A stretch of DNA of 46,420 nt from a virus: positions 1-46,420 of the IMG/VR virus record IMGVR_UViG_3300018892_000009; one strand, 5' to 3'. The notes under the pieces were generated by a model. That model saw nothing but the letters and a program-made list of their open reading frames with translations, ran no database searches and had not been told where the DNA came from. Position numbers and translations under genes: made by a program. Numbering within the stretch: position 1 is the stretch's first letter; every line of letters begins with the position of its first letter. Positions 1,333-46,420 of the stretch are shown one piece after another.

Positions 1333-1336
1333 GTTA

Positions 1337-3268: not shown

Positions 3269-3281
3269 GGGTCATAATGGT

Positions 3282-3789: not shown

Positions 3790-3832
3790 AGTGTTAGGCT
3801 CCTTAGTGGTTCATTTTGGTTCACTCAAAAGG

Positions 3833-4273: not shown

Positions 4274-4286
4274 AGGGTTTGTCTCC

Positions 4287-4303
4287 TTTGGTTGTTATAA
4301 CAA
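4287..4303 (-). promoter_or_regulatory. Palindromic promoter/operator motif before the tube gene
   Basis: The 17-mer TTTGGTTGTTATAACAA (plus strand) is exactly repeated at 7605-7621. On the minus strand it reads as an extended -10 (TGT-TATAAC) followed at once by the Shine-Dalgarno of the tube gene. It contains the perfect 12-bp palindrome TTGTTATAACAA, so a repressor or activator site is an alternative. A related copy lies at 43309-43319. Confidence 0.6.
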
Positions 4304-4310
4304 TGTCACG

Positions 4311-5855: not shown

Positions 5856-5894
5856 AAGTCTAAAGCTAGATAATGGATAAGTATTAATCGGTTG

Positions 5895-5909
5895 CTCACT
5901 ACTAGAATG
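5895..5909 (-). promoter_or_regulatory. Candidate late promoter motif, sheath gene
   Basis: On the minus strand CATTCTAGTAGTGAG, identical to 10328-10342 (upstream of the scaffold gene) and 13/15 identical to 14836-14850 (upstream of gpI). All three precede major virion genes at 14-39 bases from the start codon. Confidence 0.55.
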
Positions 5910-5914
5910 AGCGG

Positions 5915-6475: not shown

Positions 6476-6867
6476 CGGTTTATTCTGTCCTCTCTAATGT
6501 AAGCTGTATAGAATACCGTGTCTGTTGTGTCCAGGTGGGTACAGAAGTACACTTTGTTGTTGTAAAGGTACTTTCCCTTAGATAACACTGTCTGCGTACT
6601 TGCTGGGTCAATGAGCGTCTGATAGCGTGTAATCTCGCTCACCACCAAGTCACCTTGGAACACCTCTACGCTGGCACTTAGAAACTTACCAATCTGTTGA
6701 GGTTTTACCAGCTCAACGTTAGGGTTAGGGGTGATTGGAATGGTTAAATCTATACCAGCTTGGTTAGTGTACTTAATCAGAACGTCCTGATATGTCTCTA
6801 CACCAAACTTACTAGGCAGAGCATTGAGACGGGCAACGAGCTTCTGTAGGTTTTGAACTAGTGGCAT
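6472..6867 (-). CDS. Head-tail stopper/closure protein candidate
   Basis: 131 residues, ATG start, two bases downstream of the HK97 gp10-like gene. It contains several short beta strands (KFLSASVEVFQGDLVVSEIT, then GKYLYNNKVYFCTHLDTTDT), consistent with the small beta-barrel stoppers that close the portal channel after packaging. No motif decides it; the assignment is by synteny (capsid, adaptor, gp10-like, this, terminator, sheath). Confidence 0.5.
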   Translation of the reverse strand: MPLVQNLQKLVARLNALPSKFGVETYQDVLIKYTNQAGIDLTIPITPNPNVELVKPQQIGKFLSASVEVFQGDLVVSEITRYQTLIDPASTQTVLSKGKYLYNNKVYFCTHLDTTDTVFYTAYIREDRINR

Positions 6868-6869
6868 TG

Positions 6870-7352
6870 TTATGACCTGATGTACTTTTTAGCTGATTCT
6901 AGGAACTTACTCGTGCTAACGCCTGAGCCACTCCTGAACCCCGTAGTACCCGACACTTGACGCCCTGAGCTTACCAAGTCCTTAAAGCCTAAAACGTCTG
7001 GTGTTGAGCCTGTTAAGCTGATTTGCTTGGCTAGCTTTTTCCCAACCTCATTGCCTAACTGCTTCCTAAACTCAGCACGTATCAGAGGCAACGCCTTAGC
7101 CAATGGCGCTCTAGCGGTCATATGCCTAGTACCACCCTCGACAAAGCTTGAATACTTGGCTGTGTTAATCCATCGGATACCATAGCCTTCAAGCTCTGCT
7201 TTCCATGAGGCTTTCATGTTGCCAGTCTTGACAGGTGTGTTACCCTTGACTAGCTTAAGCCCATATTTAAGGGTGTTCTGAGTAGCCCTTTTAATGGCTG
7301 GAGTGACCGAGAAGCCATCGGCTAAAGCGCCATAGAATGATACCTCTGACAC
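6870..7352 (-). CDS. HK97 gp10-like head-tail/tail completion protein
   Basis: 160 residues. The core (VKGNTPVKTGNMKASWKAEL, then NTAKYSSFVEGGTRHMTARA) is the characteristic signature of the HK97 gp10 family: a TP-x-TG-x-L/M-x-x-SW motif followed by A-x-Y-x-x-x-x-E-x-G-T. These proteins act at the head-tail junction or on the tail terminator. Translation probably begins at the GTG at 7352, with AAGGAAGG five bases upstream. This is one of the better-supported small connector calls. Confidence 0.82.
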   Translation of the reverse strand: MSEVSFYGALADGFSVTPAIKRATQNTLKYGLKLVKGNTPVKTGNMKASWKAELEGYGIRWINTAKYSSFVEGGTRHMTARAPLAKALPLIRAEFRKQLGNEVGKKLAKQISLTGSTPDVLGFKDLVSSGRQVSGTTGFRSGSGVSTSKFLESAKKYIRS

Positions 7353-7364
7353 GCTACACCTTCC

Positions 7365-7589
7365 TTATTTTTTCGGTGCTTCCGGCTGAATCTTAGCACT
7401 CATAGGGGTTTCAATCCCTTGAGCCTTATCCGCTTCAATCTGATCTCGATAGTTTTCTTCTGGAGGAATGACAGGTTGATACATGACAACAACCTCAGCC
7501 CGTCGCAGAACATGATCGGCAGTTTCAAACGGTACAACGGTAGGCTGTACAGACTCAACAAGTGCTTTAGGCTTAACATCTTCAGACAT
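7365..7589 (-). CDS. Small hypothetical protein in connector operon
   Basis: 74 residues, ATG with AAAAGGA upstream. Pro-, Glu- and Lys-rich, no membrane segment, not recognised. It has its own upstream promoter/operator motif (7605-7621), identical to that before the tail tube gene, so it starts a separately controlled sub-operon running toward the connectors. It could be a head or neck accessory protein. Confidence 0.65.
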   Translation of the reverse strand: MSEDVKPKALVESVQPTVVPFETADHVLRRAEVVVMYQPVIPPEENYRDQIEADKAQGIETPMSAKIQPEAPKK

Positions 7590-7604
7590 AATCAGTCAAT
7601 CCTT

Positions 7605-7621
7605 TTTGGTTGTTATAACAA
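7605..7621 (-). promoter_or_regulatory. Palindromic promoter/operator motif, second copy
   Basis: Identical 17-mer to 4287-4303, with the TTGTTATAACAA palindrome and an extended -10 reading (TGT-TATAAC) on the minus strand. It sits just upstream of the Shine-Dalgarno for the 7589 start. Confidence 0.6.
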
Positions 7622-7628
7622 GGCTATG

Positions 7629-8051
7629 TTACCACTGAGTAGCAACGTAACCAGTGGACGTGTTAGGCGCGATACCAAACAATGCGTATAGCTCTTGACT
7701 GGCAGGGTACTCATCCAAGTAGCGGTTCCAGAATAGCCTTACCCCGGTTAGCTGGGCTAGCTCGGTTAACAGTGCTGTAGCTTCAATCTTGAGTGCTGAT
7801 AAATGAGTTTTAAAATCAAGCTTCATCGTGCCTAAGTTGATAGCCATTGTGTTAGCTCTAGCCTCAGCCAGTAACCCGTCAATCGTTGACAGGTCATCAA
7901 CTATCAGCGTTAGGCGTTGTTGCCGCTCAGGTGTTAGCACTAGTAAGCCGTTCAGTCCTACAAGGTCTGAGGGTATAATGTACTGCTCAATACTGGGCTT
8001 AACCTTTGGATACCCTAATAGCACTAGCAACTTGTCTATTGTTATTGACAT
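7629..8051 (-). CDS. Head-tail adaptor candidate
   Basis: 140 residues, helical throughout its middle (LSTIDGLLAEARANTMAINL, then LDFKTHLSALKIEATALLTE), which fits adaptor proteins (gp6/gp15-like) that sit below the portal. It is the first gene after the capsid gene in the direction of transcription once the inverted HNH gene is discounted. The function is inferred from that position. Confidence 0.5.
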   Translation of the reverse strand: MSITIDKLLVLLGYPKVKPSIEQYIIPSDLVGLNGLLVLTPERQQRLTLIVDDLSTIDGLLAEARANTMAINLGTMKLDFKTHLSALKIEATALLTELAQLTGVRLFWNRYLDEYPASQELYALFGIAPNTSTGYVATQW

Positions 8052-8104
8052 GGTTTGAATACTCTGTTAGGCTCTAAGGGTAGGCAGAAATGAAGGATTG
8101 AGCA

Positions 8105-8548
8105 GTGACAAGTACCAGCTACGTTATGAAGGTCTGTACTAAGTGTCTGACACCTAAGGGGTTAGAAGCATTTGGCGCTCATAAGATGGGTGTCTATGGT
8201 AAGCGCCCAAGCTGTAAAACCTGTGTCAATCAAGACAAGAAGGCTAAACGCGCACAATACACGGCAACTGAAAGCGCTAGACGTTCAAAGGGTAAAATCC
8301 AGCTAAGTACTGAACAGAGAAGGCAGATAAGGGTTATCTACAATGCAGCTAAAACGATGAGAGAGCAAGGGTTAGCCGTTGCTGTTGACCACATTGACCC
8401 GATTAACGGTGTCTTAGTTTGTGGGTTTCATTGTCCGGATAACCTAATGATTATCACCGCTGAGGCTAACATGAAGAAGTCTAACTCTTTCCAACCTTAT
8501 CGAGTTCAGTACTTACCCGATGGCTCCACGGTCACTACATTAGTCTAG
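8105..8548 (+). CDS. HNH endonuclease (likely homing type)
   Basis: 147 residues. An N-terminal CTKC (about residue 11) and a following CKTC pair could bind zinc. The C-terminal half contains the HNH core VDHIDPINGVLVCGFHCPDN followed by LMIITAEANMKKSN, matching the His-Asn/His catalytic pattern of phage HNH nucleases. The start GTG at 8105 has GAAGGA about eight bases upstream. It is inserted between the capsid and adaptor genes on the opposite strand and overlaps the capsid stop by four bases, as expected of a free-standing homing endonuclease, though a packaging-associated nuclease is possible. Confidence 0.85.
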   Translation: MTSTSYVMKVCTKCLTPKGLEAFGAHKMGVYGKRPSCKTCVNQDKKAKRAQYTATESARRSKGKIQLSTEQRRQIRVIYNAAKTMREQGLAVAVDHIDPINGVLVCGFHCPDNLMIITAEANMKKSNSFQPYRVQYLPDGSTVTTLV

Positions 8549-9642
8549 CTGACCGCAATATCTGATAGCACCGCGATCGACTTACGGTTGTAAACGGCTA
8601 GCTGAGGGTAAATCCTGAGTGTGAAACTAATCGCATCAGGATTTCCTTGTGGCAACGATGACAGCACGAACTGTAAGCCGTAAGTGTCCTCTGGGTTTGT
8701 TACCGCCGTGGTGATGCTATCATTTTCATCGACAACGCTGTCAGGCTGACTCATGTCGAACTGTACTAACTCAATCTGACTTGAGTCAACAAACAACATA
8801 AAGCCCACAGGCACTCTAGGATCTTCTGTTAAAGGAATACCATTGTAAGAGCGCGAGGTGTGACCCAGGTCAACCACTGGGAAATCCATTTCTCCATCGG
8901 TTGCTTTGGGCAGCGTACCACCACCACCAATGTCATAGAAGATCTTGTTATATTGCCGAGCGGTAGACGGATTCACCAGGATTGTGTCAAAAGATGACTC
9001 GTTTAGTTGTACCAACTCTTCAACTCTCAGAAGAGTGTCACGAGTTAGTACTGTGGGCGTTCCACCATTGCTGATGCCCAAAGGAGTCCAACTAGGAACA
9101 TTTAGTCGGCTAATACCTGCATATGGGTCAAAGTACGGTGCTGTAGGCTGATACGTTACAGGAGAACCACCGATGCTTGCAGGATGTAGTAACCCCACGA
9201 ACTCTCCATCCCCCGTAACACCCTTTGTGCCAGTGGCATAACCGTTATAGATTAGAGTGTTCAAGCGTCGAGTGATGCTCAACACCTTATCACCCATCGT
9301 CTTATTGATGAGCTTCTTGACCGCACCAACACCACGGCTTTGGGCTTGTTTCAGGTCTTGACGTAAAAAGCTGAATGTTTCAGACAGTCGATAGTGTCCA
9401 ACTTCTAAGCGCGCGGCAACAGCACCGTCTTTAGACCCTTCTGTGGGGATGTCAGTGATTGCTTCCATCCGAGCGGCTGACCCACCGACATCAACCTGCC
9501 ACTTAATATCATAGCTGGATTGTGTAGTAATCATACCACGCTGACTAAACATTGCCAGCGTAGGAGCTGCTTTTAGTCGTTGGTCAGGGCGTCGAGTCTT
9601 GAAAGTCTCTACAATGAGAGACGGGTCTAAATAATCAGCCAT
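8545..9642 (-). CDS. Major capsid protein (HK97-fold candidate)
   Basis: 365 residues directly after the scaffold-like gene. The start ATG carries AAAGGA upstream. The N-terminal arm is followed by a region compatible with the E-loop and P-domain of capsid proteins (SETFSFLRQDLKQAQSRGVG, then DTILVNPSTARQYNKIFYDI; the latter resembles the A-domain segment DTIVMNP of known capsids). Nothing else in the genome has the right size and place. The promoter before the scaffold gene probably drives both. Confidence 0.8.
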   Translation of the reverse strand: MADYLDPSLIVETFKTRRPDQRLKAAPTLAMFSQRGMITTQSSYDIKWQVDVGGSAARMEAITDIPTEGSKDGAVAARLEVGHYRLSETFSFLRQDLKQAQSRGVGAVKKLINKTMGDKVLSITRRLNTLIYNGYATGTKGVTGDGEFVGLLHPASIGGSPVTYQPTAPYFDPYAGISRLNVPSWTPLGISNGGTPTVLTRDTLLRVEELVQLNESSFDTILVNPSTARQYNKIFYDIGGGGTLPKATDGEMDFPVVDLGHTSRSYNGIPLTEDPRVPVGFMLFVDSSQIELVQFDMSQPDSVVDENDSITTAVTNPEDTYGLQFVLSSLPQGNPDAISFTLRIYPQLAVYNRKSIAVLSDIAVS

Positions 9643-9674
9643 TTGAGTTTAGTCCTTTGGTAAGTTAGAATCAG

Positions 9675-10313
9675 TTAGATTGCACCAACACCACGCATTA
9701 GGCGCTCATCAAGCGTCGAGATATCAACAGTGTTAGGTCGGCTGGTGTTGGATGGCGGTGGGGTTACACCTTGTAAAATGCCTGATGGTAACACTCGCTT
9801 ACCGCTTGGAGACTCGTAGAACTCTTTAGCGATCGTTGTTAAGTCTTTGCCATTCTCACTGATGAACTTCCCATCAACCTTGGTCAATGACCCAGCGAAA
9901 TGCTGTAACCCAGCCAATGCCAAGTTGTAGTCCTCTGGACTACCCGATGCCACTGCATCCTTGAGTGCCGCGTCTAGCTCTGCTTTGTCTTGCTTTGCCT
10001 TGTTCTGTCGGTTCTCATTCTCCAGAGCCTCAATCTTTGCCATGAGAGCTTTAACTGCTGGGTTAGAACTATCTGGCGCTTCATCGTCAGAGGTCTTAGG
10101 CGCTTTAGTTTCAGCAAACTTAGCATCCATAGCCTGAGTAAGCTCAGATTGCACTCGCTTAAGTTCAGATTGCGTTTTAACCGTCAACTGATTGATAAGC
10201 GGAGTGATGATGTCTGACAGCACTTGCTCGATGTTCACCTCATCAGCGTTTCCGTCTGTGGGCTTATCCTCAAGGGTACTCTCGGAATCGGTAGTCTTCT
10301 TTACTGGCGGCAT
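9675..10313 (-). CDS. Scaffold / prohead core protein candidate
   Basis: 212 residues, very charged, with a long helical and probably coiled-coil middle (LINQLTVKTQSELKRVQSEL and KALMAKIEALENENRQNKAK). This is the usual make-up of capsid scaffolds, and it lies immediately before the capsid gene. The C-terminus (STLDERLMRGVGAI) could be the capsid-binding end. No protease gene is visible nearby, so scaffold removal may not need cleavage or may use a protein I did not recognise. ATG start after a C/A-rich leader. Confidence 0.72.
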   Translation of the reverse strand: MPPVKKTTDSESTLEDKPTDGNADEVNIEQVLSDIITPLINQLTVKTQSELKRVQSELTQAMDAKFAETKAPKTSDDEAPDSSNPAVKALMAKIEALENENRQNKAKQDKAELDAALKDAVASGSPEDYNLALAGLQHFAGSLTKVDGKFISENGKDLTTIAKEFYESPSGKRVLPSGILQGVTPPPSNTSRPNTVDISTLDERLMRGVGAI

Positions 10314-10327
10314 GGTTGTTGTCCTCT

Positions 10328-10342
10328 CTCACTACTAGAATG
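10328..10342 (-). promoter_or_regulatory. Candidate late motif, scaffold-capsid operon
   Basis: CATTCTAGTAGTGAG on the minus strand, 14 bases before the scaffold start codon. Exact copy at 5895-5909, near-copy at 14836-14850. Confidence 0.55.
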
Positions 10343-10358
10343 TATCGTTGTCACTATC

Positions 10359-10388
10359 ATTATAACGTTTTATTGCGAGACTGTGTAA
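10359..10388 (-). promoter_or_regulatory. Sigma70-like promoter for scaffold and capsid genes
   Basis: On the minus strand TTACAC (10388-10383), 18 bases, TATAAT (10364-10359), just upstream of the CATTCTAGTAGTGAG element. The perfect -10 fits a strongly expressed operon. Confidence 0.6.
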
Positions 10389-10597
10389 AAATCCTTGACA
10401 TTCTTTAGAGATTTGATAAGATCTATCAACACCTGGCATTCAGCCTTTGGGCGCTCATCCTTCTGATACACTTCTCGAATCCTAACTTGCTTTTTCAGTC
10501 TCTCCTCAGCCCATACCGCCATAGTTCCTATCATCTCGACCTCATGGCGTTGTAACAATGTCACATCATCAGGTCTTCGGCTCGGTTGCTTGTTCAT
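10370..10597 (-). CDS. Small hypothetical protein
   Basis: 75 residues, basic N-terminus, mostly helical, no membrane segment. It overlaps the stop of the upstream membrane-protein gene (ATGA at 10597-10594), so it is translationally coupled to it. Not recognised. The pairing with a small membrane protein behind the fibre genes makes a lysis-related or fibre-related role possible, but nothing in the sequence shows it. Confidence 0.6.
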   Translation of the reverse strand: MNKQPSRRPDDVTLLQRHEVEMIGTMAVWAEERLKKQVRIREVYQKDERPKAECQVLIDLIKSLKNVKDFYTVSQ

Positions 10598-10974
10598 TGC
10601 TCATCGTCATCCTTTCCCAGAGTACTCTCTAGGGTCATTTGAGCCTTGGTCAACTCCATCTTGATAGAATCTACAGCTTCTTGAGTACTGGATAGCCGGG
10701 GGTCACTCATGAGGTCAGCTATCCGCTTATTAGACGTTGCTATAATCCTTAAGCTTTTAGCATTTGACTCTTGGACATCCTTTAACGTCTCCAATAGGTC
10801 AAAATGCTTATGCCATGCACGACCTATGGACTTACGAGTTAACACATAGACAACTGCTATTGCCAATAAAACCGCATAGCTACCAGTTTGGATGCCAGTC
10901 ATCACCTCTCGATACACGTCAATCGTACTACTTGGCGCTTGCACTGTAATCGGGGTAGTCTCACTGTTGCTCAT
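10594..10974 (-). CDS. Single-pass membrane protein with coiled coil
   Basis: About 126 residues if it starts at the ATG at 10974, which has AAGG eight bases upstream; two in-frame ATGs lie just ahead (10980, 10995). A membrane segment (TGSYAVLLAIAVVYVLTRKS) is followed by a basic stretch and a long amphipathic region (LLETLKDVQESNAKSLRIIA...). Type and size would allow a holin-like or spanin-like lysis protein, but one membrane span with a long cytoplasmic coiled coil is not diagnostic. The gene overlaps its upstream neighbour by 14 bases. Confidence 0.65.
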   Translation of the reverse strand: MSNSETTPITVQAPSSTIDVYREVMTGIQTGSYAVLLAIAVVYVLTRKSIGRAWHKHFDLLETLKDVQESNAKSLRIIATSNKRIADLMSDPRLSSTQEAVDSIKMELTKAQMTLESTLGKDDDEQ

Positions 10975-11392
10975 TTTCATTACCTTGGCTTTCAACCCAC
11001 TGCATCAACTTTTGATATGTAGCCCCCAGCATTGCCTCATCCTTAATCGTGTAAGCTGCTAAGAGGCTCAATAGCAGCGTTAACACCATTGAATCCTTAG
11101 CACCCTGAGCTAGAGCTAGTTGCATCTTAGGGTTAGTGAAAATCTCACTAATCGGTATTTCTACACCTGGAGCAACATTGACGCTGGGCGGTAACACCCA
11201 TTCGCCAGTCATGTTGTTAAAACAGATAGCACCTTCAGGTCTAGGAGGTATCGGCAGTACTACCCCATCCTTTATATACAGTTGCTCTATGTCTGTATAG
11301 CCTTCGGGCGCTTCAAGTAGCAGGAATCTATCTCTTGACTGTGTGCCATCATCCCAGCCATATATAGACTGTCCATCGGTCAATAAGTACAT
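10961..11392 (-). CDS. Tail-fibre assembly/attachment-like protein
   Basis: 143 residues, ATG with AAGG nine bases upstream, directly downstream of the glycine-rich fibre. The N-terminal half (YTDIEQLYIKDGVVLPIPPR, then MTGEWVLPP) resembles fibre-associated Tfa-type chaperones, with their short GxW motif. The C-terminal half is helical (MVLTLLLSLLAAYTIKDEAM). It probably helps fold or decorate the fibre. Moderate support. Confidence 0.5.
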   Translation of the reverse strand: MYLLTDGQSIYGWDDGTQSRDRFLLLEAPEGYTDIEQLYIKDGVVLPIPPRPEGAICFNNMTGEWVLPPSVNVAPGVEIPISEIFTNPKMQLALAQGAKDSMVLTLLLSLLAAYTIKDEAMLGATYQKLMQWVESQGNENEQQ

Positions 11393-11403
11393 ATACGAAT
11401 ACC

Positions 11404-12780
11404 TTAATAGAGTGGGATGTTCTCGTAAGTTCTGATGACTCCATTGGTTGCCGCTGTGGTATGAGTGCCACCTGTGCCACCGTTACCACCTCCTCTTGTA
11501 ACAATCCCATTCTGGTTAGCTACGTTAGCGCCTACCGTGCCAGCTAGTACGTTGAGATTAGCGCCTGAGTAGTTGATGGATGGAGACATGAGGACTATCT
11601 GACCTCCAGCACCACCCCCCCCGGGAAAACCACCAAATATTGTGGTATCTGGCTTATTACCTGGCACACCGTTACCACCTCTACAAAATATGCTTGAAGT
11701 ATTGCTGATAAACACTGAATAGATAGCTGATAATACAACCGTGCCACCTGACCCACCGGAACCACCGCAATAGTTGAAAGCTGTAGAGCCAGGTGGTGTT
11801 GAAGCACTGTTACCGTTACAGTTTATAACACCACCATTGACAATAACTTTCTGAGCTTCAACCCATAAGCCTGATCCACCTTCACCACCGTTAGGTACTA
11901 GATGCAGGTTGCTAGATGTGGGGCTAGCGTACCCAAACCCAGCACTTCCACCACTCCCATAGGGTTGAGCTAACCAGGAATAAGCACGACCGGATAGACC
12001 AGCACCACCACCGGAACCTGCACCGATACCACCACCGGGGAAACCCCCGCAGCTACCGGAACCACCCGCAATGTAGCCAGCACCGCCTAAAATGCACGGT
12101 GTCATCGTGATAGTACCATTGCAGGTAAAGTTACCAGAGCATAAAATCTTAGTGTTGTTGGTGATAGTGCAAGTGATACCCGCTGGTACAGTGAAGTTAC
12201 GACAATAGACTAGCGCCTCATCAATGACCTCATTCTGAGTAACAACTCTATCTATGCGACTTTGACCGCCGTAGACCTTGATAATGTTGGTAGGTACATC
12301 GACTCTACGAGTAGCCAGCGATCGATAGTCCTCAATCGTTGTAACATTAGTACCGACAGTTGTAACACGAGCTAGCACTAGCCTAATGGTTGACATTTTA
12401 GCGTAGGCATCTGGCTCAGTAACATCTGATACCACTTGCACTGTTGCAACACTGTCAATGAATATGTAGCTTACACTGTCAGCAGGTAATGAGACTTGAC
12501 CACCTACAACTGATAGTATTCTGCCATCTGTACCCCTCACTACACCACTAGCCCAAGAGACAATAGAGCCTGACACCTTGACAACCCTAAAAGGCTCTAC
12601 GACCGCTGACACTCTACTCAGGACACCATTAGGGTCTAGCGATTCATCACCAAGCTTGGGTAAGTGACCAAGAAACTGGGTTAGACCATCAAACACCGGA
12701 TTGGCTATACAATAAGCCATATCGCCTGTAAAATAGTCAACCGTTGAGAAATCGGTATTCGGTAACAATGGGGCTGGCAT
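11404..12780 (-). CDS. Glycine-rich tail fibre / receptor-binding protein
   Basis: 458 residues. The N-terminal 150 residues look like a virion attachment domain. Residues about 215-440 are dominated by long glycine runs (GGGIGAGSGGGAGLSG, FPGGGGAGGQ, GGGNGGTGGTH) alternating with short hydrophobic beta-like strands. This composition recalls polyglycine-II sandwich adhesins such as phage S16 gp38, which form fibre tips that bind host receptors. It lies between the collar fibre and the Tfa-like gene, so it is probably a host-range determinant. The polyglycine-II fold is inferred from composition only. Confidence 0.72.
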   Translation of the reverse strand: MPAPLLPNTDFSTVDYFTGDMAYCIANPVFDGLTQFLGHLPKLGDESLDPNGVLSRVSAVVEPFRVVKVSGSIVSWASGVVRGTDGRILSVVGGQVSLPADSVSYIFIDSVATVQVVSDVTEPDAYAKMSTIRLVLARVTTVGTNVTTIEDYRSLATRRVDVPTNIIKVYGGQSRIDRVVTQNEVIDEALVYCRNFTVPAGITCTITNNTKILCSGNFTCNGTITMTPCILGGAGYIAGGSGSCGGFPGGGIGAGSGGGAGLSGRAYSWLAQPYGSGGSAGFGYASPTSSNLHLVPNGGEGGSGLWVEAQKVIVNGGVINCNGNSASTPPGSTAFNYCGGSGGSGGTVVLSAIYSVFISNTSSIFCRGGNGVPGNKPDTTIFGGFPGGGGAGGQIVLMSPSINYSGANLNVLAGTVGANVANQNGIVTRGGGNGGTGGTHTTAATNGVIRTYENIPLY

Positions 12781-12801
12781 AGTTGTTAAGTTTTGTAAAG
12801 T

Positions 12802-14133
12802 TTAAACGTTAGCGAATCCAATAACGTACAAACCCATGTAAGGCTGTAAGTTATTATGTGCTGTACCTGACCCTGTGGACGATGTAGCTATGTTAGTACC
12901 ACTGCCGAGAGCCGCAACGACACTATTAGGCGTACCCGTGCCAGCATTGCTCGGTGCAAATGCCGTATTGTGGGTGTGTGCTGGCAACTCTGCCAAGCTT
13001 AAGCTATGGGTAGCTGTACCACCTCTAAACCCAAGCGTTGTTAAAGTCGGTATAACGTTGGCAGCACCCATCAGCGTACTCATATTATCTAGCCCAGCCA
13101 TTACACGCCCTCTTAAATCCGGCACTCTGAAAGTACCCGACACCTCATTGCCGATATTATAGAGAGTCCCTAGCACCGCAAAAAGGTCAGCATATGTAGT
13201 GGTCGAAAGGGTTCTACCGTCATACATAACCCAGTATTGAGGCGCGCTCGGTGTCACCCAGTAAGCTGGCATACCGATCGGGTTGATAGCCTTAGCCGTA
13301 GGAAACACCAGATTCCTAACCCATGATGTTGATGGCACTAATCCGCTGTTATCACTGGCTAGCGGTGAACTCGCTAAGGTTGGAGCGGTCAGCACTGCAT
13401 TAGTGCTAGACACCTTAGACGCTACAACAGCCTTAGTCTCTAACGTCTCGATAACATTCCTTACCGATTGCTTGGAAGGTGCTGTAGTTGAGGAGTTGCC
13501 AGTGTTCCACGCTGTAGCATCATAGGGGCTGTTATCACCTGTTGTACCCGCGCCTGTGTCGCCTTTCTGGCTGAAAATCTGCCACAGTGTAGGGTTGCTA
13601 ATCGGGTCTTTACCAGCGATAGGTACACTAGACACTGATGAGTACAGATTGCCTTGGTAGTAGACAACCTGACCAAACGTATAAGTTGCCGTCGCTGAAT
13701 AGTTGCCTTTCCTAGGGTAGAAAGTCTGCTGCAACTTGACCCAGAATCCATCATTATAATACAAACCCCTGATGATGGCTTGGAACGAAGAGTCCTGGTT
13801 ATCCTCACTAATACCCGTCTGAGTGATTAAATCTGTCCATTTGATAGGTGTCAAACTAGCGGGTACTGTCGCCTTGAACTCCCAAATAAGCTCAGACGCT
13901 TGAGCCTGCCCATACTGATAAATACTAAACGTGTACTGTTGCCCAGCCGTGGCACTATTTTCTAGTGCTATTGAGCCTTGCCCTCCAACTAGCTCAACCC
14001 TACTAATCGCTGGCAAGTACGTCTTATTGGTATCTTGGTCTACCACAGGATTAGACAGCTTTATCAGCACATAACCATTAAGCGCTACACCCTGGCTATC
14101 ATATTGGTCAATCAGAATAGTAGTTTTACTCAT
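12802..14133 (-). CDS. Tail fibre with collar domain and possible carbohydrate-binding module
   Basis: 443 residues. The C-terminus has an unmistakable phage tail-collar domain: INPIGMPAYWVTPSAPQYW, then TFRVPDLRGRVMAGLDN, SLAELPAHTHN and a terminal LQPYMGLYVIGF. Around residues 145-185 a segment (YTFGQVVYYQGNLYSSVSSV ... PTLWQIF) resembles small family 5/12 carbohydrate-binding modules. The gene follows gpI and precedes the glycine-rich fibre, so it is most likely the main fibre that links baseplate and receptor tip. Confidence 0.85.
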   Translation of the reverse strand: MSKTTILIDQYDSQGVALNGYVLIKLSNPVVDQDTNKTYLPAISRVELVGGQGSIALENSATAGQQYTFSIYQYGQAQASELIWEFKATVPASLTPIKWTDLITQTGISEDNQDSSFQAIIRGLYYNDGFWVKLQQTFYPRKGNYSATATYTFGQVVYYQGNLYSSVSSVPIAGKDPISNPTLWQIFSQKGDTGAGTTGDNSPYDATAWNTGNSSTTAPSKQSVRNVIETLETKAVVASKVSSTNAVLTAPTLASSPLASDNSGLVPSTSWVRNLVFPTAKAINPIGMPAYWVTPSAPQYWVMYDGRTLSTTTYADLFAVLGTLYNIGNEVSGTFRVPDLRGRVMAGLDNMSTLMGAANVIPTLTTLGFRGGTATHSLSLAELPAHTHNTAFAPSNAGTGTPNSVVAALGSGTNIATSSTGSGTAHNNLQPYMGLYVIGFANV

Positions 14134-14150
14134 TTGGTGTTATCACAAGG

Positions 14151-14810
14151 CTATATGGTTACAGTGTAGGTGGTTCCGTCCGGGTTGGTGTTTAAGAACT
14201 GAGAACCACTAGGAAATATAGGATCGCCAAGCTTTGAACGTCCAAGTATGAAGCCCTGATAAGCTACTACTGACTCCACTACGGCGGGTATGTAGCCCTT
14301 TAACACTCTACGCACCTCACGCCACTCGCGCCCAGTCCTAGAGGTTAGCTTAGGCATAAGTATAAATACTCTCATGCGCCCTTTGCCAAACTTACCCGGT
14401 AACTTGAACGGCAACATCAGCACCGTGTCTTGCCAGTAACAATATGTCACCTGCAACAACTCTAAAACCTTGCTGATTCCAGCCTTAGTGCCTCGATGCT
14501 TCTTCAAATATTGCTGATTGACTAGTATCGCTCTCTTAATCTCAGGCTCCCAGTCCTTAACCCAGTAAGGCTGAAAGGATAACCCAAATAAGAACGCTAC
14601 ATAGTCCAACCACTCATCAGGACACGTCTCAGGGTCTAACGTCAGGTACAGGTTAGACAGAATATCCTGCCACTCACTCAGCACCTCATCAGGATAAGCT
14701 GTTACCCAGCCTACCACCTCATTATCCTGGTAGCCCTTCTGAGGCAAGATGCCCATTATCGGCTCTCTATTCGCCCATGCTTGTTGTTCCCTTGTTTGGA
14801 GTCCTACCAT
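14151..14810 (-). CDS. Baseplate protein gpI-like
   Basis: 219 residues, first gene of the leftward virion operon. The segment CPDEWLDYVAFLFGLSFQPY, then W..EIKRAILVNQQYLKKHRGTKAGI, matches the P2 gpI baseplate family (CP-x-x-x-L-x-x-LA...W, then KR-x-x-I...HR-x-GT). With gpJ and gpW it forms the wedge. In P2-like phages gpI directly follows gpJ; here it has moved to the front of the fibre genes, about 15 kb away on the circle. Confidence 0.8.
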   Translation of the reverse strand: MVGLQTREQQAWANREPIMGILPQKGYQDNEVVGWVTAYPDEVLSEWQDILSNLYLTLDPETCPDEWLDYVAFLFGLSFQPYWVKDWEPEIKRAILVNQQYLKKHRGTKAGISKVLELLQVTYCYWQDTVLMLPFKLPGKFGKGRMRVFILMPKLTSRTGREWREVRRVLKGYIPAVVESVVAYQGFILGRSKLGDPIFPSGSQFLNTNPDGTTYTVTI

Positions 14811-17257: not shown

Positions 17258-17286
17258 TTGACACTTCCTGAAATACACGTTATATT
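17258..17286 (+). promoter_or_regulatory. Promoter of large RNA A
   Basis: TTGACA (17258-17263), 17 bases, TATATT (17281-17286), near-consensus. The TATATT -10 is shared by the other three non-coding units and differs from the mRNA promoters here. Confidence 0.8.
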
Positions 17287-17292
17287 AGAAGA

Positions 17293-17857
17293 GTCAAGAG
17301 GAAAGGGAGCCGAAAGGCACTCGCTACCAAGAGCCTCACTGCTCTACCGTAGCACACTTTAACACCTTGACGCTTCTGGTTTAAGTTAAGTAGTTTCTCA
17401 ACAGTCCCGACAAAACTTGTGGCGAGCGGGTGAAAATGATGATTAAGGATGTACGAGCCTTAGCCCTGTTGAGATATCCCTTATAAAGGACAAAGCTACA
17501 AATCACAATCTAGATGTTCTCCGCGTATGACCCTAAAGGCTGCGAGGGCTAAAGTTGAACTAGAGGAAAACCATTAAGGAAGCGGCAACGTTAGCTTGTT
17601 TTTCCTGAGTGTCTTCGAGAGTGGCAACACTTTCAAGGCTTAACCAAACATACAATAACCGGATATATCACTTTAGTCGTCGAGGCTCTGGGTGAGAAAT
17701 AAGGGGAAGGTATGGGCGGTAAATATTCACCAATCTGCAAGCGTTGAGCCTCGACAACCTGCCTTGCGGTGAATAACTCTCACTTGCAAACTCTCACTAG
17801 CCTAATAAGCTGCGAAGTATCGCATCAAACGCCCACAAAGCTTTGATGCGATTTTTG
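17293..17857 (+). ncRNA. Large structured RNA A, about 565 nt
   Basis: No credible reading frame lies between the promoter at 17258 and the terminator at 17819-17852. The sequence holds several exact helices. GTCAAG (17293) pairs with CTTGAC (17366). CTCAACAG (17397) pairs with CTGTTGAG (17466). A GNRA hairpin GAGAGTG-GCAA-CACTTTC lies at 17617-17634. A 10-bp helix joins GTCGAGGCTC (17679) and GAGCCTCGAC (17746). TATTCACC (17724), inside its loop, can pair with GGTGAATA (17768), forming a pseudoknot. It looks like an ornate phage RNA of the kind exemplified by GOLLD and ROOL, but I cannot match it to either. Its 5' end resembles that of RNA B (41246). Confidence 0.72.
17819..17857 (+). terminator. 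Strong intrinsic terminator of RNA A
   Basis: ATCGCATCAAA (17819-17829) pairs perfectly with TTTGATGCGAT (17842-17852) and is followed by a T run. Confidence 0.88.
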
Positions 17858-30176: not shown

Positions 30177-30201
30177 CAAGCGCCTAAGCTTTTGATAATA
30201 T
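30173..30201 (+). promoter_or_regulatory. Sigma70-like promoter
   Basis: TTGACA (30173-30178), 17 bases, TAATAT (30196-30201). It begins over the ATPase stop codon (30174-30176) and serves the gene starting at 30240. Confidence 0.7.
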
Positions 30202-30239
30202 TAAAAGGTAGGCACTACACCGTTAAGCACTGGGATACC

Positions 30240-30659
30240 ATGAAAGCTAAAGAATACATAGGTAAAAAGCTCTATATCCTTAGGTGGGATAGATTTACAT
30301 TCACATATCAAATGGAGGAAGTCGGTACACTTTCACGCATAGGGCGTAAGTATTACTACTGTCTAAACAAGTTCAATCAAGAAACTAAGTTAGAACTGTC
30401 AACCCTTAGCGATGAATACTCCATGATATTCAGGGTAGTGAGTGCCTACGATTGTGAACACTACTATCCTTATGAAGGAGCCATAAAGAAGCTGAGGGAG
30501 TATCAAATGAACCAAGCACTCCCTCAACCATTGCACAAGTATGGCAACACTGTAGAAGTCCTAGAGAAGTATCTAGAAGAATGCGCTTTAGTGCTTGAGG
30601 GTACTAAGGCTAAAATAGCCAAAGATTTAAAAACCTGGGAAGAGAAAGGTAAGCCCTAA
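30240..30659 (+). CDS. Hypothetical protein, 139 aa
   Basis: I start it at the ATG at 30240, because the promoter -10 lies inside the longer frame (30192). The sequence MKAKEYIGKKLYILRWDRFT with many Tyr and Lys residues is soluble, basic at the C-terminus and unrecognised. It has its own promoter and converges with the hub gene, whose stop is only two bases away. Confidence 0.75.
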   Translation: MKAKEYIGKKLYILRWDRFTFTYQMEEVGTLSRIGRKYYYCLNKFNQETKLELSTLSDEYSMIFRVVSAYDCEHYYPYEGAIKKLREYQMNQALPQPLHKYGNTVEVLEKYLEECALVLEGTKAKIAKDLKTWEEKGKP

Positions 30660-40212: not shown

Positions 40213-40267
40213 GGTGTTTAAGGTTGTGTGTGTGTTTTGTGTGTTTCAGCGCTTGGCTGACTTCTAA

Positions 40268-40297
40268 ATACTAACCCGGTAGCTCTCTAGATGTCAA
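40268..40297 (-). promoter_or_regulatory. Early-type promoter
   Basis: Minus strand TTGACA (40297-40292), 18 bases, TAGTAT (40273-40268), flanks shared with 19802-19831. A 7-bp hairpin TAGAAAA/TTTTCTA (40304-40320) lies just upstream. Confidence 0.8.
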
Positions 40298-40391
40298 CCC
40301 TTTTAGAAAACTATTTTCTAGCACACCCTCAACACCATAACCTGCAACCGTTCCAGCCTTTCAACCCTCAACCTTTGGGCATTGTCACAAG

Positions 40392-40406
40392 TACATTGTT
40401 ATCACA
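40392..40406. repeat. 15-bp inverted repeat, left arm, flanking small RNA 1
   Basis: TACATTGTTATCACA. Its exact reverse complement is at 40608-40622. The two arms enclose the RNA 1 promoter, RNA and terminator. Confidence 0.75.
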
Positions 40407-40424
40407 CCCAAGAGGCTCCAATGT

Positions 40425-40551
40425 TAAACCCCTCTAACCAGATAGGTTTGTGAGGGGTTCGGTGTGGAGTGCTTAGTAAGCCTGACTCTCTTGGCGACCG
40501 GAGTGACCCGGTGAGCTTCAACCTCATATGCCTGGGCTTTTCGCTCTCCAC
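40425..40551 (-). ncRNA. Small structured RNA 1, about 127 nt (paralogue of RNA 2)
   Basis: It has a promoter TTGACA-18-TATATT (40587-40558) and ends in AACCCCTC/GAGGGGTT (40459-40427). It shares blocks with RNA 2: TATGAGGTTGAAGC, CGCCAAGAGA, CTTACTA and CCTATCTGGTTA. The outer stem is GTGGAG/CTCCAC here and GTGAAGG/CCTTCAC in RNA 2, with a G-C to A-T compensating change. The inner hairpin is ACCGG/CCGGT here and GGTA-GAGA-TACC there. Conserved single-stranded blocks between covarying helices are the mark of a functional RNA. No open frame of useful length. Confidence 0.75.
40427..40459 (-). terminator. Terminator of small RNA 1
   Basis: AACCCCTC (40459-40452) and GAGGGGTT (40434-40427) form an 8-bp stem, followed by TAAC. 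The loop contains AACC-TATCT-GGTT. Confidence 0.65.
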
Positions 40552-40557
40552 CCTTTT

Positions 40558-40587
40558 AATATAACACCATTGTCTAGAGGGTGTCAA
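40558..40587 (-). promoter_or_regulatory. Promoter of small RNA 1
   Basis: Minus strand TTGACA (40587-40582), 18 bases, TATATT (40563-40558), preceded by GTGT as in RNA 2 and large RNA B. Confidence 0.8.
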
Positions 40588-40607
40588 GAGGTTTGACCAA
40601 CTTTTTC

Positions 40608-40622
40608 TGTGATAACAATGTA
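40608..40622. repeat. 15-bp inverted repeat, right arm
   Basis: TGTGATAACAATGTA, exact reverse complement of 40392-40406. Confidence 0.75.
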
Positions 40623-40739
40623 ACGCCCTAGGTTGGGCTGTGGGACGCTTTAGTGGGTTAGCCGTTACGTTGCCCCATTCTTGAGCGCTAACACGTCCTA
40701 GCGCCTCACAGGTGGCAGTGCTATACTTTACACCCTCAA

Positions 40740-40869
40740 AGCGAAACCCCCTTAACCAGATAGGCTTGTAGGGGGTTTCTTGTGAAGGAGCTAGTAAGCT
40801 TGGTTCTCTTGGCGGGTATCTCTACCGGGCTTCAACCTCATATACCGGAGCGGTTTGCTTTCCCTTCAC
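40740..40869 (-). ncRNA. Small structured RNA 2, about 130 nt (paralogue of RNA 1)
   Basis: Promoter TTGACA-17-TATATT (40904-40876) and a strong terminator GAAACCCCC/GGGGGTTTC (40779-40743). It carries the same conserved blocks as RNA 1 in the same order, with compensating changes in two helices, and lies 318 bases from it in tandem. Local duplication followed by divergence under structural constraint is the simplest reading. It is not a tRNA: no T-loop or acceptor pattern is present. Confidence 0.76.
40743..40779 (-). terminator. Terminator of small RNA 2
   Basis: 9-bp perfect stem GAAACCCCC/GGGGGTTTC, 19-base loop that contains CCTATCTGGTTA, also present in the RNA 1 terminator loop. Confidence 0.75.
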
Positions 40870-40875
40870 TTCTTA

Positions 40876-40904
40876 AATATAACACCCTCAGCAATAGGTG
40901 TCAA
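40876..40904 (-). promoter_or_regulatory. Promoter of small RNA 2
   Basis: Minus strand TTGACA (40904-40899), 17 bases, TATATT (40881-40876). Confidence 0.8.
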
Positions 40905-41029
40905 GCGTTTTAGCAAAAATACTTTAGAGGGTTATCACGGTTTACCAGTCTCAACCCTCAAAGCTTTAACCTGTAAGCGCTTGAGGGTATCGAGCTAGTA
41001 CAAGTCCCAAGGTACATAATATAGATGTC

Positions 41030-41092
41030 CTAACCATCTTCCTCTATTTCCTCTGATGTCCTGATATCTGTATCATCTGGGTACTCATCCAC
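41030..41092 (-). CDS. Acidic micro-peptide, 20 aa
   Basis: GTG start with GGAGGG six bases upstream: MDEYPDDTDIRTSEEIEEDG. It sits behind a promoter (41125-41154). A hairpin CCCTCAA/TTGAGGG lies about 40 bases after the stop. Eleven of 20 residues are acidic. The alternative is that the transcript is another small RNA and the frame is incidental. Confidence 0.4.
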   Translation of the reverse strand: MDEYPDDTDIRTSEEIEEDG

Positions 41093-41124
41093 GGTCAGCC
41101 CTCCATATGTTAGTCCTTAAGAAC

Positions 41125-41154
41125 ATGGTAGCACAATAAACATATGAGTGTCAA
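41125..41154 (-). promoter_or_regulatory. Promoter of the leftward early block, distal end
   Basis: Minus strand TTGACA (41154-41149), 18 bases, TACCAT (41130-41125). It lies back to back with the RNA B promoter (41211), so this is a divergent control region. Confidence 0.6.
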
Positions 41155-41210
41155 TACCTTTATAGAATATCATTCTTTAGACATATCCTAGGGAAATCTT
41201 TCTACAATCC

Positions 41211-41239
41211 TACACACTTCTTGAAAAAGGTGTTATATT
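41211..41239 (+). promoter_or_regulatory. Promoter of large RNA B
   Basis: TACACA (41211-41216), 17 bases, TATATT (41234-41239), followed by AGAGGAGTGGAAGAGGAA, close to the RNA A start AGAAGAGTCAAGAGGAA. Confidence 0.65.
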
Positions 41240-41245
41240 AGAGGA

Positions 41246-42180
41246 GTGGAAGAGGAAGGGCAACCGACCAACCCCACAAGGAATGCGTCAAGCGAGTCAG
41301 CAATGTCAAGCTTGGTTTGTCTGACAGGAGAATATCTAAAAGGGTAACACGTTCCAAGGTGGACAACGTGCGAGAGTATTAGAGAAGATACTGTCTACAT
41401 ATTAGAACCGACCTTATTGGAGTCCACCCCACGACACTAAGGTTCTGATAGCTCTCCTTTGGTATGATACTTTCTTCTTGTAGCGACTCATCGAACCCTT
41501 TGGCAGGGGAGTCTGAAAGTGACGAACTTGGTGTATAAGAGCCATAACCTTACAAGATAGGCGCAAGCTGACAAGAGAGCGAGTTGAGAACCGTGACACC
41601 TTGTGAAGAAGAACCCATCAAGGAAGTGCAAGGGTGAAGAAATAAGATGAGGAGCAATGTTAGAATCCTGAAAGGGCGTCACCTCATCCACTCCGGAGCG
41701 GCAACCGTACCAGAACCCTTAAAGATTGGCAGTCCTTAAGTTGCTAGGATTAAGACACCTCAACGTCTTGGGTGGACAGGCTCTTTAACGGATTAGAACT
41801 AAGGGTAAGAGCCTTAAACCAATCTCACAGCTAGGCGCTCAACGTCTCTAGCCTGGTAGTACCCAGGCAACCGCCCTGAATGGCAACAGGCGCTAAATAA
41901 TCACTTCGCTCCAAGCTTGATGGTTAACCAGGCAAGGCAACGTTAACGCCTCAAAAGCTAACGGTTTAAGGGTAGCGCCCTGACAAGGTGAGTGAAAGAT
42001 TTCTCACTAGCAAGATTACCCGACTAACCGAACCACTTTGATTCATGAGCTGTGGATTGGCGTAAGTGCTAACCATCCGAATACTGGCAACAGTGAGTAG
42101 GTATCCGAGAGGGCAGAACTAGGGGAGCAGGTAGAAGGAAGGGTATTAAGCCTCAGAGTATTATTACTTTGGGGCGTTTT
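41246..42180 (+). ncRNA. Large structured RNA B, about 935 nt
   Basis: No credible coding frame; short frames on both strands look like chance. Long-range exact helices include GGAGTGGA (41243, partly at the start site) with TCCACTCC (41687), GGTGGAC (41358) with GTCCACC (41422), GCCTGG/CCAGGC (41851/41863) and several local hairpins, some with GCAA tetraloops (ACTG-GCAA-CAGT near 42090). The motif GGCAAC recurs about six times, and twice in RNA A. It ends at the hairpin 42151-42174. It resembles large ornate phage RNAs in size and texture, but I cannot name the family. Confidence 0.7.
42151..42180 (+). terminator. Terminator of RNA B
   Basis: CCTCAGAGTA (42151-42160) pairs with TACTTTGGGG (42165-42174; two G-T pairs), 4-base loop, followed by CGTTTT. 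Confidence 0.75.
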
Positions 42181-42190
42181 GCTGTTTATA

Positions 42191-42199
42191 TGGTATGAT
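42191..42199 (+). promoter_or_regulatory. Extended -10 promoter
   Basis: TGG-TATGAT just after the RNA B terminator, 26 bases before the ATG at 42226. It has the same layout as RNA A, terminator, promoter, small gene at 17.8 kb. Confidence 0.5.
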
Positions 42200-42225
42200 G
42201 GATTTATAACCATTCAACCAAGCAC

Positions 42226-42504
42226 ATGAGAACTCTAACCCTAGTACATGAAAAGCAAGGTACATCAGGTACTCAGTCCTACTTTGATAAACCTTATGGT
42301 AGCGGGTTTCTTCTCATTGCCTACCGCGATCGCCATTATCAGGGATGGTACAAGGCTAAAATATGGGTTAATAATGAGCTGGTAGACTCTTGGAAATGTG
42401 AGGACGGGCTATGGACTAACAACACTTCTGGTGTCCAACTTCGACATTTGAGAAGCGTGGTTAAGTACCACGGTAAGAGAATGAAGCAATATAAGACGCA
42501 TTGA
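42226..42504 (+). CDS. Small hypothetical protein, 92 aa
   Basis: ATG after a C/A-rich leader. Aromatic- and basic-rich (YRDRHYQGWYKAKIWVNNEL), ending KYHGKRMKQYKTH. A HIP1 palindrome lies inside the gene (42326). Not recognised; a small beta domain is likely. Confidence 0.7.
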   Translation: MRTLTLVHEKQGTSGTQSYFDKPYGSGFLLIAYRDRHYQGWYKAKIWVNNELVDSWKCEDGLWTNNTSGVQLRHLRSVVKYHGKRMKQYKTH

Positions 42505-42529
42505 CACCCAGCCCTGGTAATGTTATGCT
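42501..42529 (+). promoter_or_regulatory. Sigma70-like promoter
   Basis: TTGACA (42501-42506), 17 bases, TATGCT (42524-42529). It overlaps the stop codon of the previous gene. Confidence 0.65.
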
Positions 42530-42557
42530 TGAGTTACATGGAACCGATTAGAACCTA

Positions 42558-42806
42558 ATGCCTAAAACACCGAACACTATGAAACCTAGCAACATTTTAC
42601 TCTCACAACTCTCAGAGCTTACCGTAGAAGGCATTGAAGTCGTACAACCCTTTGAGGTATTAATGGGACTTAATGAGTCTGACCTTACGGACACTGGAGA
42701 CTTTTACCTGGTAGATGACTTAGATTACATGATAAATGGAAAGTACCACCGCTTGAGCCTAACCAAAAAACCAGACGGTACATATAAAGGCACACTTAAG
42801 TGTTAA
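42558..42806 (+). CDS. Small hypothetical protein, 82 aa
   Basis: Starts MPKTPNTMKPSNILLSQLSE; a second ATG (42579) is possible. Acidic centre (MGLNESDLTDTGDFYLVDDL), basic C-terminus. Own promoter, followed by a strong terminator. Not recognised. Confidence 0.7.
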   Translation: MPKTPNTMKPSNILLSQLSELTVEGIEVVQPFEVLMGLNESDLTDTGDFYLVDDLDYMINGKYHRLSLTKKPDGTYKGTLKC

Positions 42807-43329: not shown

Positions 43330-43950
43330 TTATACGTTAACCAGTGGCGCGGTGTTAGCGTTGAGCTTCCCATCGCCAAACACTAAGCGCCAGGGCAGGA
43401 AGGTACAGTCAAATAAGGTATTGCCTGTATCCTTGAGGCTCCTGATGAACTTCTGATGCAGGCTGAAGTCTAGCCCAACATGGCAACCTGCCGACCAGTT
43501 GCCTACCCCACCGCTGTAACCTCGATAAGTTGAGTGTCCGTTGATGCCACACTCAGCACCCGCTACCACTGGCTTACTGGCACGACTGAAGGAGCCATCT
43601 TTGACCCGATGCACTCGGATATTGGCACACTGAACTAAGGACTCGTGAGGGTTTGAGTACCCATGAGTTCCAAATGTCCAAGCGTCCCGGTGCTGACCGT
43701 AGGCAATGAGCGCACACCCAGCGGCGTTCATCGGATTATCCATATAATATTGACCGGGGCGAATGGTTGCCAGTTGCTTAAATGTCACCTCTCCCTTGTC
43801 TGAGACTATTAGGCGCACGTCGTTCCATTGGTCAGGTACTTGGGGAAATAAATCACCATTCGTGTCACAGCTTCCAATGTAGACAACGTTACGTGCCTTG
43901 AGCCTCATACCGTTAGCAACCATAGCCTTGATAATCTTTGAGCCATCCAT
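43330..43950 (-). CDS. YkuD-like peptidoglycan peptidase, endolysin candidate
   Basis: 206 residues. The order FGTHGYSNPHESLVQCANIR, VHRVKD, then AECGINGHSTYRGYSGG and VGNWSAGCHVGLDF matches phage proteins with an L,D-transpeptidase/YkuD-type fold. A conserved His (in INGHS) is followed about 16 residues later by SAGC, the catalytic Cys motif. Enzymes of this type cleave or exchange peptidoglycan stem peptides. As the only free-standing wall enzyme seen, it is the best endolysin candidate. Its ATG lacks a strong Shine-Dalgarno, and no holin lies next to it. Confidence 0.68.
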   Translation of the reverse strand: MDGSKIIKAMVANGMRLKARNVVYIGSCDTNGDLFPQVPDQWNDVRLIVSDKGEVTFKQLATIRPGQYYMDNPMNAAGCALIAYGQHRDAWTFGTHGYSNPHESLVQCANIRVHRVKDGSFSRASKPVVAGAECGINGHSTYRGYSGGVGNWSAGCHVGLDFSLHQKFIRSLKDTGNTLFDCTFLPWRLVFGDGKLNANTAPLVNV

Positions 43951-45594: not shown

Positions 45595-45947
45595 ATTGCT
45601 AACCTTAGTTGCTCTGTTAAGTTTGAACCGTTTACACTGTAGGAGACGTTAACCACTGTTAAGCCATCGGTGATAAAGCCTGTGACTGAGTAAGGTACAT
45701 CAGGGTATTCTAACGTAAGAACCTTAAGCGCTGATGATGCTGCACGTATTGACAGGATTAGAGCATCAGTGTTGAACAAGGTTGTCTCGGTTCCGTAGTC
45801 ATCCCGATAGACCCTTTCGCCCCTGACCGTGTTGAGTGCTGAAAGTATTGCGCCTCTGACCTGTTGAGCGTAGTCGCTTGTAGTGTCGATGTCTCCATAC
45901 TTGTTTCGCCTCATAGGATAGACTAGCTCAGTCAGTGTCTCATTCAC
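45591..45947 (-). CDS. Baseplate wedge protein gpW/gp25-like
   Basis: 118 residues. The run YAQQVRGAILSALNTVRGER, then VYRDDYGTETTLFNTDALI, fits the GPW/gp25 family (I-x-x-x-L-x-T-x-x-GER-x-x-x-x-D-x-G). It joins the spike and wedge proteins and is essential for sheath assembly initiation in relatives. It overlaps gpV and gpJ on either side, so the three are one translational unit. Confidence 0.85.
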   Translation of the reverse strand: MNETLTELVYPMRRNKYGDIDTTSDYAQQVRGAILSALNTVRGERVYRDDYGTETTLFNTDALILSIRAASSALKVLTLEYPDVPYSVTGFITDGLTVVNVSYSVNGSNLTEQLRLAI

Positions 45948-46420
45948 TGGCTACCTCCCAGCCTTTGAGAATGGCTTGATGTCCTTGAGTGTCCTTAGCG
46001 TCAATGGTTAGTACGCTCTTGCCGTTGATGGTTAGGTCTGAATCAGTTAGGGTCATGGTAACGTTACCAGTGCTGAAAGTTATAGCGCCGTCCTTGACCG
46101 AGACTGATGAGCTACCGAGCCGATACATTAGCTCCTCCTCTTTCTGGTTCATTTTGGTTAAGTCATTGACTAGCAACCCCAGTACAACGCCTTCATGAGG
46201 ATCGCCGTCAATGTATCCACATACAGCGGTAGCACCTGTGAGGTCTGTGGGCATTGATAGCCTACTGATGGGTAACATTCGATAGTACCAAGGGCTGAGG
46301 CTCTTTCCACCTTCAGAGGCTAGGAATACCTGAATCCGGTTATGCTCTAGAGGGTCATCTACGTTTACTATTTGTCCTAATGTCAATGAAAGGTTTCTAC
46401 CTGTTAGCTGGCTCAGTGTT
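45940..46420 (-). CDS. Baseplate spike/assembly protein gpV-like, 3' part (enters from the window edge)
   Basis: This is the rest of the gene whose start lies at 200. The frame is open from the window end and corresponds to residues about 19-177. After the OB-fold region (LASEGGKSLSPWYYRMLPIS, then GDPHEGVVLGLLVNDLTKM) comes a short beta-helical spike (VSVKDGAITFSTGNVTMTLT, DSDLTINGKSVLTIDAKD). Such proteins form the trimeric needle that pierces the outer membrane. It ends in an eight-base overlap with the gpW start. Confidence 0.85.
   Translation of the reverse strand, partial: TLSQLTGRNLSLTLGQIVNVDDPLEHNRIQVFLASEGGKSLSPWYYRMLPISRLSMPTDLTGATAVCGYIDGDPHEGVVLGLLVNDLTKMNQKEEELMYRLGSSSVSVKDGAITFSTGNVTMTLTDSDLTINGKSVLTIDAKDTQGHQAILKGWEVASE
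46295..46420. repeat. Terminal direct repeat, right copy
   Basis: Exact copy of 22-147. Confidence 0.9.

Follow-up and report, generated by a model that had tools for sequence, protein, structure and literature searches.

In the IMG/VR virus record IMGVR_UViG_3300018892_000009, the whole of which (46,420 bases) we refer to as the window, nearly 1 kb of DNA has no plausible open reading frame (ORF). This locus, here called RNA B, is close to an endolysin-like gene.

41211 to 41239, plus strand: promoter-like site for RNA B, TACACA-17-TATATT with an extended -10 TG; inferred start at about 41245
41245 to 42180, plus strand: RNA B, about 936 nt, without a plausible ORF; a syntenic RNA occupies 8558 to 9566 of the relative G001
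42150 to 42180, plus strand: stem-loop of 11 pairs with a T-run, resembling an intrinsic terminator
43330 to 43950: endolysin-like gene

The window contains myovirus genes (tail sheath, baseplate, terminase and portal). The HIP1 palindrome GCGATCGC occurs four times, compared with 0.18 expected, and the nearest relatives of the terminase and polymerase include many cyanophages, from which we infer that the host is a cyanobacterium. No tRNA or tmRNA is present anywhere in the window. The sole relative that we found, the IMG/VR contig IMGVR_UViG_3300034029_000005 (G001), was reached via its terminase, which is 83% identical at the amino acid level. Positions 1 to 600 and 45800 to 46420 of the window are adjacent in G001 (46377 corresponds to 13660, and 587 to 14352), so the record probably represents a near-complete, circularly permuted genome, though one without a terminal repeat. 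Directly 3' of RNA B are two small plus-strand ORFs (42226 to 42504 and 42558 to 42806) with no Pfam or PHROG match, the second of which has a TTGACA-17-TATGCT site at 42501 to 42529. Elsewhere, a plus-strand gene at 30192 to 30659 encodes a 155-aa protein that matches Phage_ProQ_C_like with an E value of 0.002, below the curated cut-off, and might be an RNA-binding protein of the phage.

Frames running from stop to stop reach at most 76 aa in 41245 to 42180, counting both strands, which is below the median for mononucleotide shuffles (96 aa; 5-95% range, 70 to 146). RNA B is surrounded by an ORF-less gap of 2,013 nt (40213 to 42225) that no other gap in the window exceeds; the median gap, computed with a hand-picked gene set, is 53 nt. 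Taken alone, the promoter is weak: it scores 9/12, and matches of this quality are common (the region has 19, against an expectation of 11.6). What speaks for it is recurrence, as the same arrangement is found at a second large RNA in the window (RNA A, described below) and ahead of each of the two G001 RNAs. The terminator of the G001 counterpart matches that of RNA B, with the stem kept despite several two-sided changes. Large structured phage noncoding RNAs (ncRNAs) generally occupy a long locus that lacks ORFs and has a promoter and a terminator of its own, and here this arrangement is repeated in G001. These results agree with a preliminary description of this DNA, which had placed nearly 1 kb without a plausible gene between a promoter and a terminator and whose coordinates were right to within a base or two.

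Folding of the RNA B sequence on its own

The preliminary description had also portrayed RNA B as full of local hairpins, GCAA tetraloops and long-range exact helices. Its minimum free energy (MFE), -276.9, is within the range expected by chance (shuffles, -268.8 +/- 8.6; z -0.95), and the folding z of the antisense strand is 0.13. Since the MFE is no better than that of shuffles, the sequence on its own does not justify describing RNA B as rich in hairpins and long-range helices, and an argument for function from the folding of a lone RNA B fails. The tetraloops held up: GCAA occurs 12 times compared with about 4.9 expected, and four GNRA hairpins with at least three stem pairs are present, compared with 0.56 in dinucleotide shuffles, of which 0 of 300 reached four. 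RNA A has three such hairpins against 0.3 in dinucleotide shuffles (1 of 300), and the excess is not significant in the G001 RNAs (two and one hairpins; 54/300 and 106/300 shuffles). Support for a structured RNA B comes only from its comparison with the relative.

Conservation and covariation between RNA B and its G001 counterpart

The G001 counterpart (8558 to 9566, about 1,009 nt) has its own promoter and terminator; relative to the baseplate and endolysin-like genes, it is on the same side as RNA B. The following elements of RNA B were identified in the comparison.

41308 to 41459, plus strand: conserved core domain, 79.6% identical to G001 over 152 nt (E 7e-31)
41348 to 41370, plus strand: hairpin H1, CACGU-UCCA-AGG-UGGA-CA-ACGUG, 9 pairs, 3 of them changed on both sides
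41400 to 41450, plus strand: hairpin H2, UAUUAGAACC/GGUUCUGAUA, with an invariant stem and a large conserved apical loop
41358 to 41364 (in H1) and 41422 to 41428 (in the H2 loop), plus strand: GGUGGAC and GUCCACC, exactly complementary and identical in both phages
41935 to 41963, plus strand: H-type pseudoknot formed by AGGC/GCCU (41935 to 41938 with 41948 to 41951) and CGUUA/UAACG (41941 to 41945 with 41959 to 41963)
41987 to 42008, plus strand: 3' hairpin, GGUGAG-UGAAAGAUUU-CUCACU, followed by the conserved AGCAAGAU

Long homologous coding blocks shared by the window and G001 are 64 to 70% identical, below the 80% of the 152-nt block, and within that block 61 of the 63 positions from 41392 to 41454 are identical (alignment A7). 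Stops interrupt the frames of the block, leaving only short stretches open. A protein-coding reading of the block was rejected, as the frames are broken, the nucleotide conservation is too high, and amino acids change where a frame is open. A second conserved domain (41929 to 42016) is located well apart from the first, and the wider 3' domain is 68.5% identical over 89 nt. The sequence between the two domains is poorly conserved, and outside the core and the pseudoknot region identity is approximately at background. Poor conservation over most of RNA B, together with the unexceptional single-sequence fold, would suit a decaying gene or an unselected spacer, but the core is conserved above the level of coding DNA, compensatory changes are present, length has been retained, and both phages have the promoter and terminator; we regard decay or lack of selection as highly improbable. 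The two well-separated conserved domains would also suit a primary transcript that is processed into several small RNAs, as would two smaller putative RNAs with related promoters that lie just upstream on the other strand. However, no internal promoter or terminator was found on the plus strand between the domains, and total length is similar in the two phages (936 and 1,009 nt), making processing an improbable explanation for the locus.

Three adjacent two-sided changes convert the lower stem of H1 from CACGU/ACGUG to CAACG/CGUUG in G001, with 9/9 pairs kept. The pseudoknot is represented in G001 by GGGC/GCCU and CAGCA/UGCUG, such that stem 2 has two-sided changes in three of its five pairs while none of the nine pairs is lost, and the 3' hairpin changes from GGUGAG/CUCACU to GGUAAC/GUUACC (two two-sided changes and one one-sided change). 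Covariation, another general trait of large structured phage ncRNAs, is therefore present in RNA B, as seen in one pairwise comparison, that of the window with G001. With two sequences, a within-pair shuffle control is weak (57 to 60 of 500 shuffles reached the values observed for H1 and the pseudoknot); when the partners were slid by one to three columns, pairing was found in 22 to 44% of cells, compared with 100% in register. The H2 pairs are neither supported nor refuted by the comparison because the stem is invariant. The invariance of this stem, as well as its loop, suggests either that the partner they bind is a fixed one or that the RNA has to adopt two alternative structures. The GGUGGAC/GUCCACC duplex (-11.4 kcal/mol) is a candidate switch, tertiary contact or kissing contact between H1 and H2, but it is only a lead, since a block of this size should contain a 7-bp match by chance; the upper stem of H1, which holds GGUGGAC, shows no covariation, whereas the lower stem covaries.

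We also aligned the RNAs with a purpose-written, unbenchmarked, structure-aware pairwise aligner, the final runs of which were anchored. RNA B gave a z of 4.2 relative to 24 class-preserving column shuffles, none of which scored as high, its antisense 3.8, RNA A 6.9, the antisense of RNA A 0.4, and one coding control -0.5. An earlier unanchored alignment of RNA B, in which the 3' domain was misaligned, was weaker (z of about 2.3), and the consensus structures derived from a plain MAFFT alignment were poor (SCI about 0.31). Because the antisense of RNA B scores nearly as high as the sense strand, the strand of RNA B is set by the promoter, the terminator and the gene context and not by covariation. 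Overall, the comparison shows that selection has acted on an RNA-like structure of several domains, including one core that is nearly invariant.

The near-equal antisense score bears on whether the locus is instead a cis-acting DNA element, such as a replication origin, packaging site or recombination hot spot, the inverted repeats of which would resemble RNA hairpins, since DNA also forms hairpins. Two segments of the window (approximately 30.2 to 41.2 kb and 16.6 to 18.7 kb) are inverted relative to G001; the first inversion boundary adjoins the upstream side of the RNA B promoter, which speaks for such an element, and the second segment contains RNA A. Near-identical inverted promoter copies (I1) could be the recombination sites for these inversions. 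Nevertheless, a promoter and a terminator flank the locus in both phages, a pseudoknot whose changes are compensatory fits RNA better than DNA, the structure of RNA A is strand-specific (z 6.9 vs 0.4), and the minimum of cumulative GC skew in the window is near 20 kb, away from RNA B. A role for the locus as a DNA element is, in our assessment, quite improbable.

A second large RNA and shared modules

17258 to 17286, plus strand: RNA A promoter, TTGACA-17-TATATT
17292 to 17856, plus strand: RNA A, about 565 nt, a second large RNA of the same type as RNA B
41245 to 41270, plus strand: 5' head of RNA B, also found in RNA A (17292 to 17313)

Among the ORF-less gaps of the window, the one that holds RNA A ranks second in size (720 nt), and the G001 orthologue of RNA A (32612 to 32051, minus strand) is 67% identical over 207 nt and 76% identical over 82 nt. 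In the window, RNA A and RNA B are alike in their promoter and 5' head, with 80% identity over 53 nt (E 9.5e-7), and the core of RNA B was not found in RNA A. The two RNAs of G001 have a different element in common, an 83-nt module (67% identity; E 2.5e-7 in direct comparison and about 1e-5 against the genome) whose consensus fold contains 20 pairs, 8 of them changed on both sides; this module was not detected in the window. Each phage thus carries a pair of partly related large RNAs, and the shared modules may have arisen by duplication or by exchange. Two tandem putative small RNAs of about 140 nt, approximately 70% identical to one another, are encoded on the minus strand upstream of RNA B (40875 to 40735 and 40557 to 40417). 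The TTGACA-TATATT promoters of both include an extended -10 TG; both have strong terminator hairpins, a CATATGAGGTTGAAGC segment is common to the two, and in the promoter/start region they are similar to RNA A and RNA B.

The syntenic locus, the conserved 152-nt block, the compensatory changes (including those in the pseudoknot) and the presence in both phages of a second RNA of this type all favor the proposal in the preliminary description that RNA B is a large structured ncRNA with a real function.

Comparison with known large RNAs

With Rfam 15 at the gathering score, no family was matched among the 4,227 scanned (chance matches only), and a search of 40900 to 42560 at E values up to 10 gave no match to GOLLD, ROOL, OLE, HEARO or raiA. 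At gathering and permissive thresholds, the A and B RNAs of both phages gave only chance matches to Rfam, and G001, like the window, gave no GOLLD or ROOL match in scans that were run without a positive-control GOLLD or ROOL locus. The check with GOLLD, ROOL and OLE models that the preliminary description had proposed was therefore negative, and its decision to assign RNA B to neither GOLLD nor ROOL was correct, no Rfam family having matched the region at E = 10. By blastn, nothing significant was found for the A and B RNAs of both phages among 50,697 phage records, for the core among plasmids, or for RNA B in E. coli genomes. Scans of IMG/VR with terminase, baseplate, DNA polymerase and RNA patterns identified G001 alone as carrying the RNA, and scans of genome contigs by RNA pattern and terminase alignment found nothing. 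A covariance model of the core, built from alignment A7, reached E values of only about 0.6 to 0.9, consistent with chance, in 14 other viral records, of which 11 were named phage records, nearly all of them cyanophages. In the annotation of Leptolyngbya phage Lbo402-yong5, the closest named phage as judged by its terminase (35%), no gap of this kind is seen. RNA B is probably a previously undescribed viral RNA that represents a new family of large phage ncRNA outside the Rfam families.

RNA B nevertheless resembles several known RNAs. GOLLD is likewise about 0.8 to 0.9 kb long, phage-associated and elaborate, with pseudoknots and GNRA loops (PMC12286853, PMC7567579), but RNA B has no match to the GOLLD covariance model even at an E value of 10, and, unlike GOLLD, which is often (commonly, not strictly) near tRNAs or carries them, it occurs in a window that has none. 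ROOL is also a large ornate RNA, found in phages and mobile DNA, whose covariance model RNA B does not match. In vitro, copies of GOLLD, ROOL and OLE associate into homo-oligomers (PMC12286853). The GOLLD cage is a 14-mer and the ROOL nanocage an 8-mer. In setting, the nearest analogy is provided by ICP1, a lytic phage without tRNAs whose most abundant transcript is an ncRNA of about 0.8 kb located at the lysis cluster in an ORF-less space of about 1 kb, and which has one further, smaller ncRNA (PMC7567579); RNA B, too, is located by an endolysin-like gene in a large ORF-less gap of a window without tRNAs. However, the phages and their hosts are unrelated, and RNA B has no sequence match to any phage record. 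Phage K, a kayvirus, resembles the phage studied here in that it is reported to have two large ncRNAs (PMC9241854), but those adjoin tRNA genes, unlike RNAs A and B, to which they have no sequence match in the phage collection.

Proposed role of RNA B

We consider it very probable that RNA B is an independent structured ncRNA; if it is, the chances that it acts in trans as a scaffold or decoy are about even. We propose that RNA B would be transcribed during infection by the host RNA polymerase from its sigma-70-type promoter, would stay untranslated, and would act in trans, its folded form serving as a scaffold or decoy. The invariant core (41392 to 41454) would bind a specific macromolecule, which could be a host or phage protein, the ribosome or another copy of RNA B, the last as proposed for GOLLD and ROOL. 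Taken as a whole, this explanation, a stand-alone, untranslated, multi-domain RNA that acts as a scaffold or decoy in a cyanobacterial myovirus-like phage, is in our judgment moderately likely.

Its main rival is a trans-acting regulatory or sponge RNA that pairs with host or phage transcripts through invariant single-stranded segments, the fold serving as a carrier. Conservation of the core in sequence and not in structure alone (61/63) is as expected for a fixed partner, and regulatory RNAs are known in phages; the PLE IIR transcript has antisense homology to the leaders of its own genes (PMC7567579). On the other hand, judged by eye, no 10-nt antisense match of the core within the two phage genomes is at a recognizably corresponding site, none is convincing as a target, and a length of about 1 kb is far above what is usual for regulatory RNAs. 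We consider regulation by base pairing unlikely. A more speculative reading, to which we give little credence, is that RNAs A and B form a two-component system in which the invariant core of RNA B docks the RNAs into an RNA-only or mainly-RNA particle during cyanobacterial infection, the RNA pair of each phage having a promoter and head or an internal module in common.

For GOLLD and ROOL, structures have been solved, and function has not been established. A separate cyanophage family, with paired, related RNAs in two diverged phages and one short domain that has been steadier than the protein genes, offers a compact place to study the role of large phage RNAs; the near-invariant 63-nt core could be mutated or used as bait. 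Because neither RNA A nor RNA B has a family model, our data suggest that large structured RNAs are more widespread in phages than Rfam indicates.
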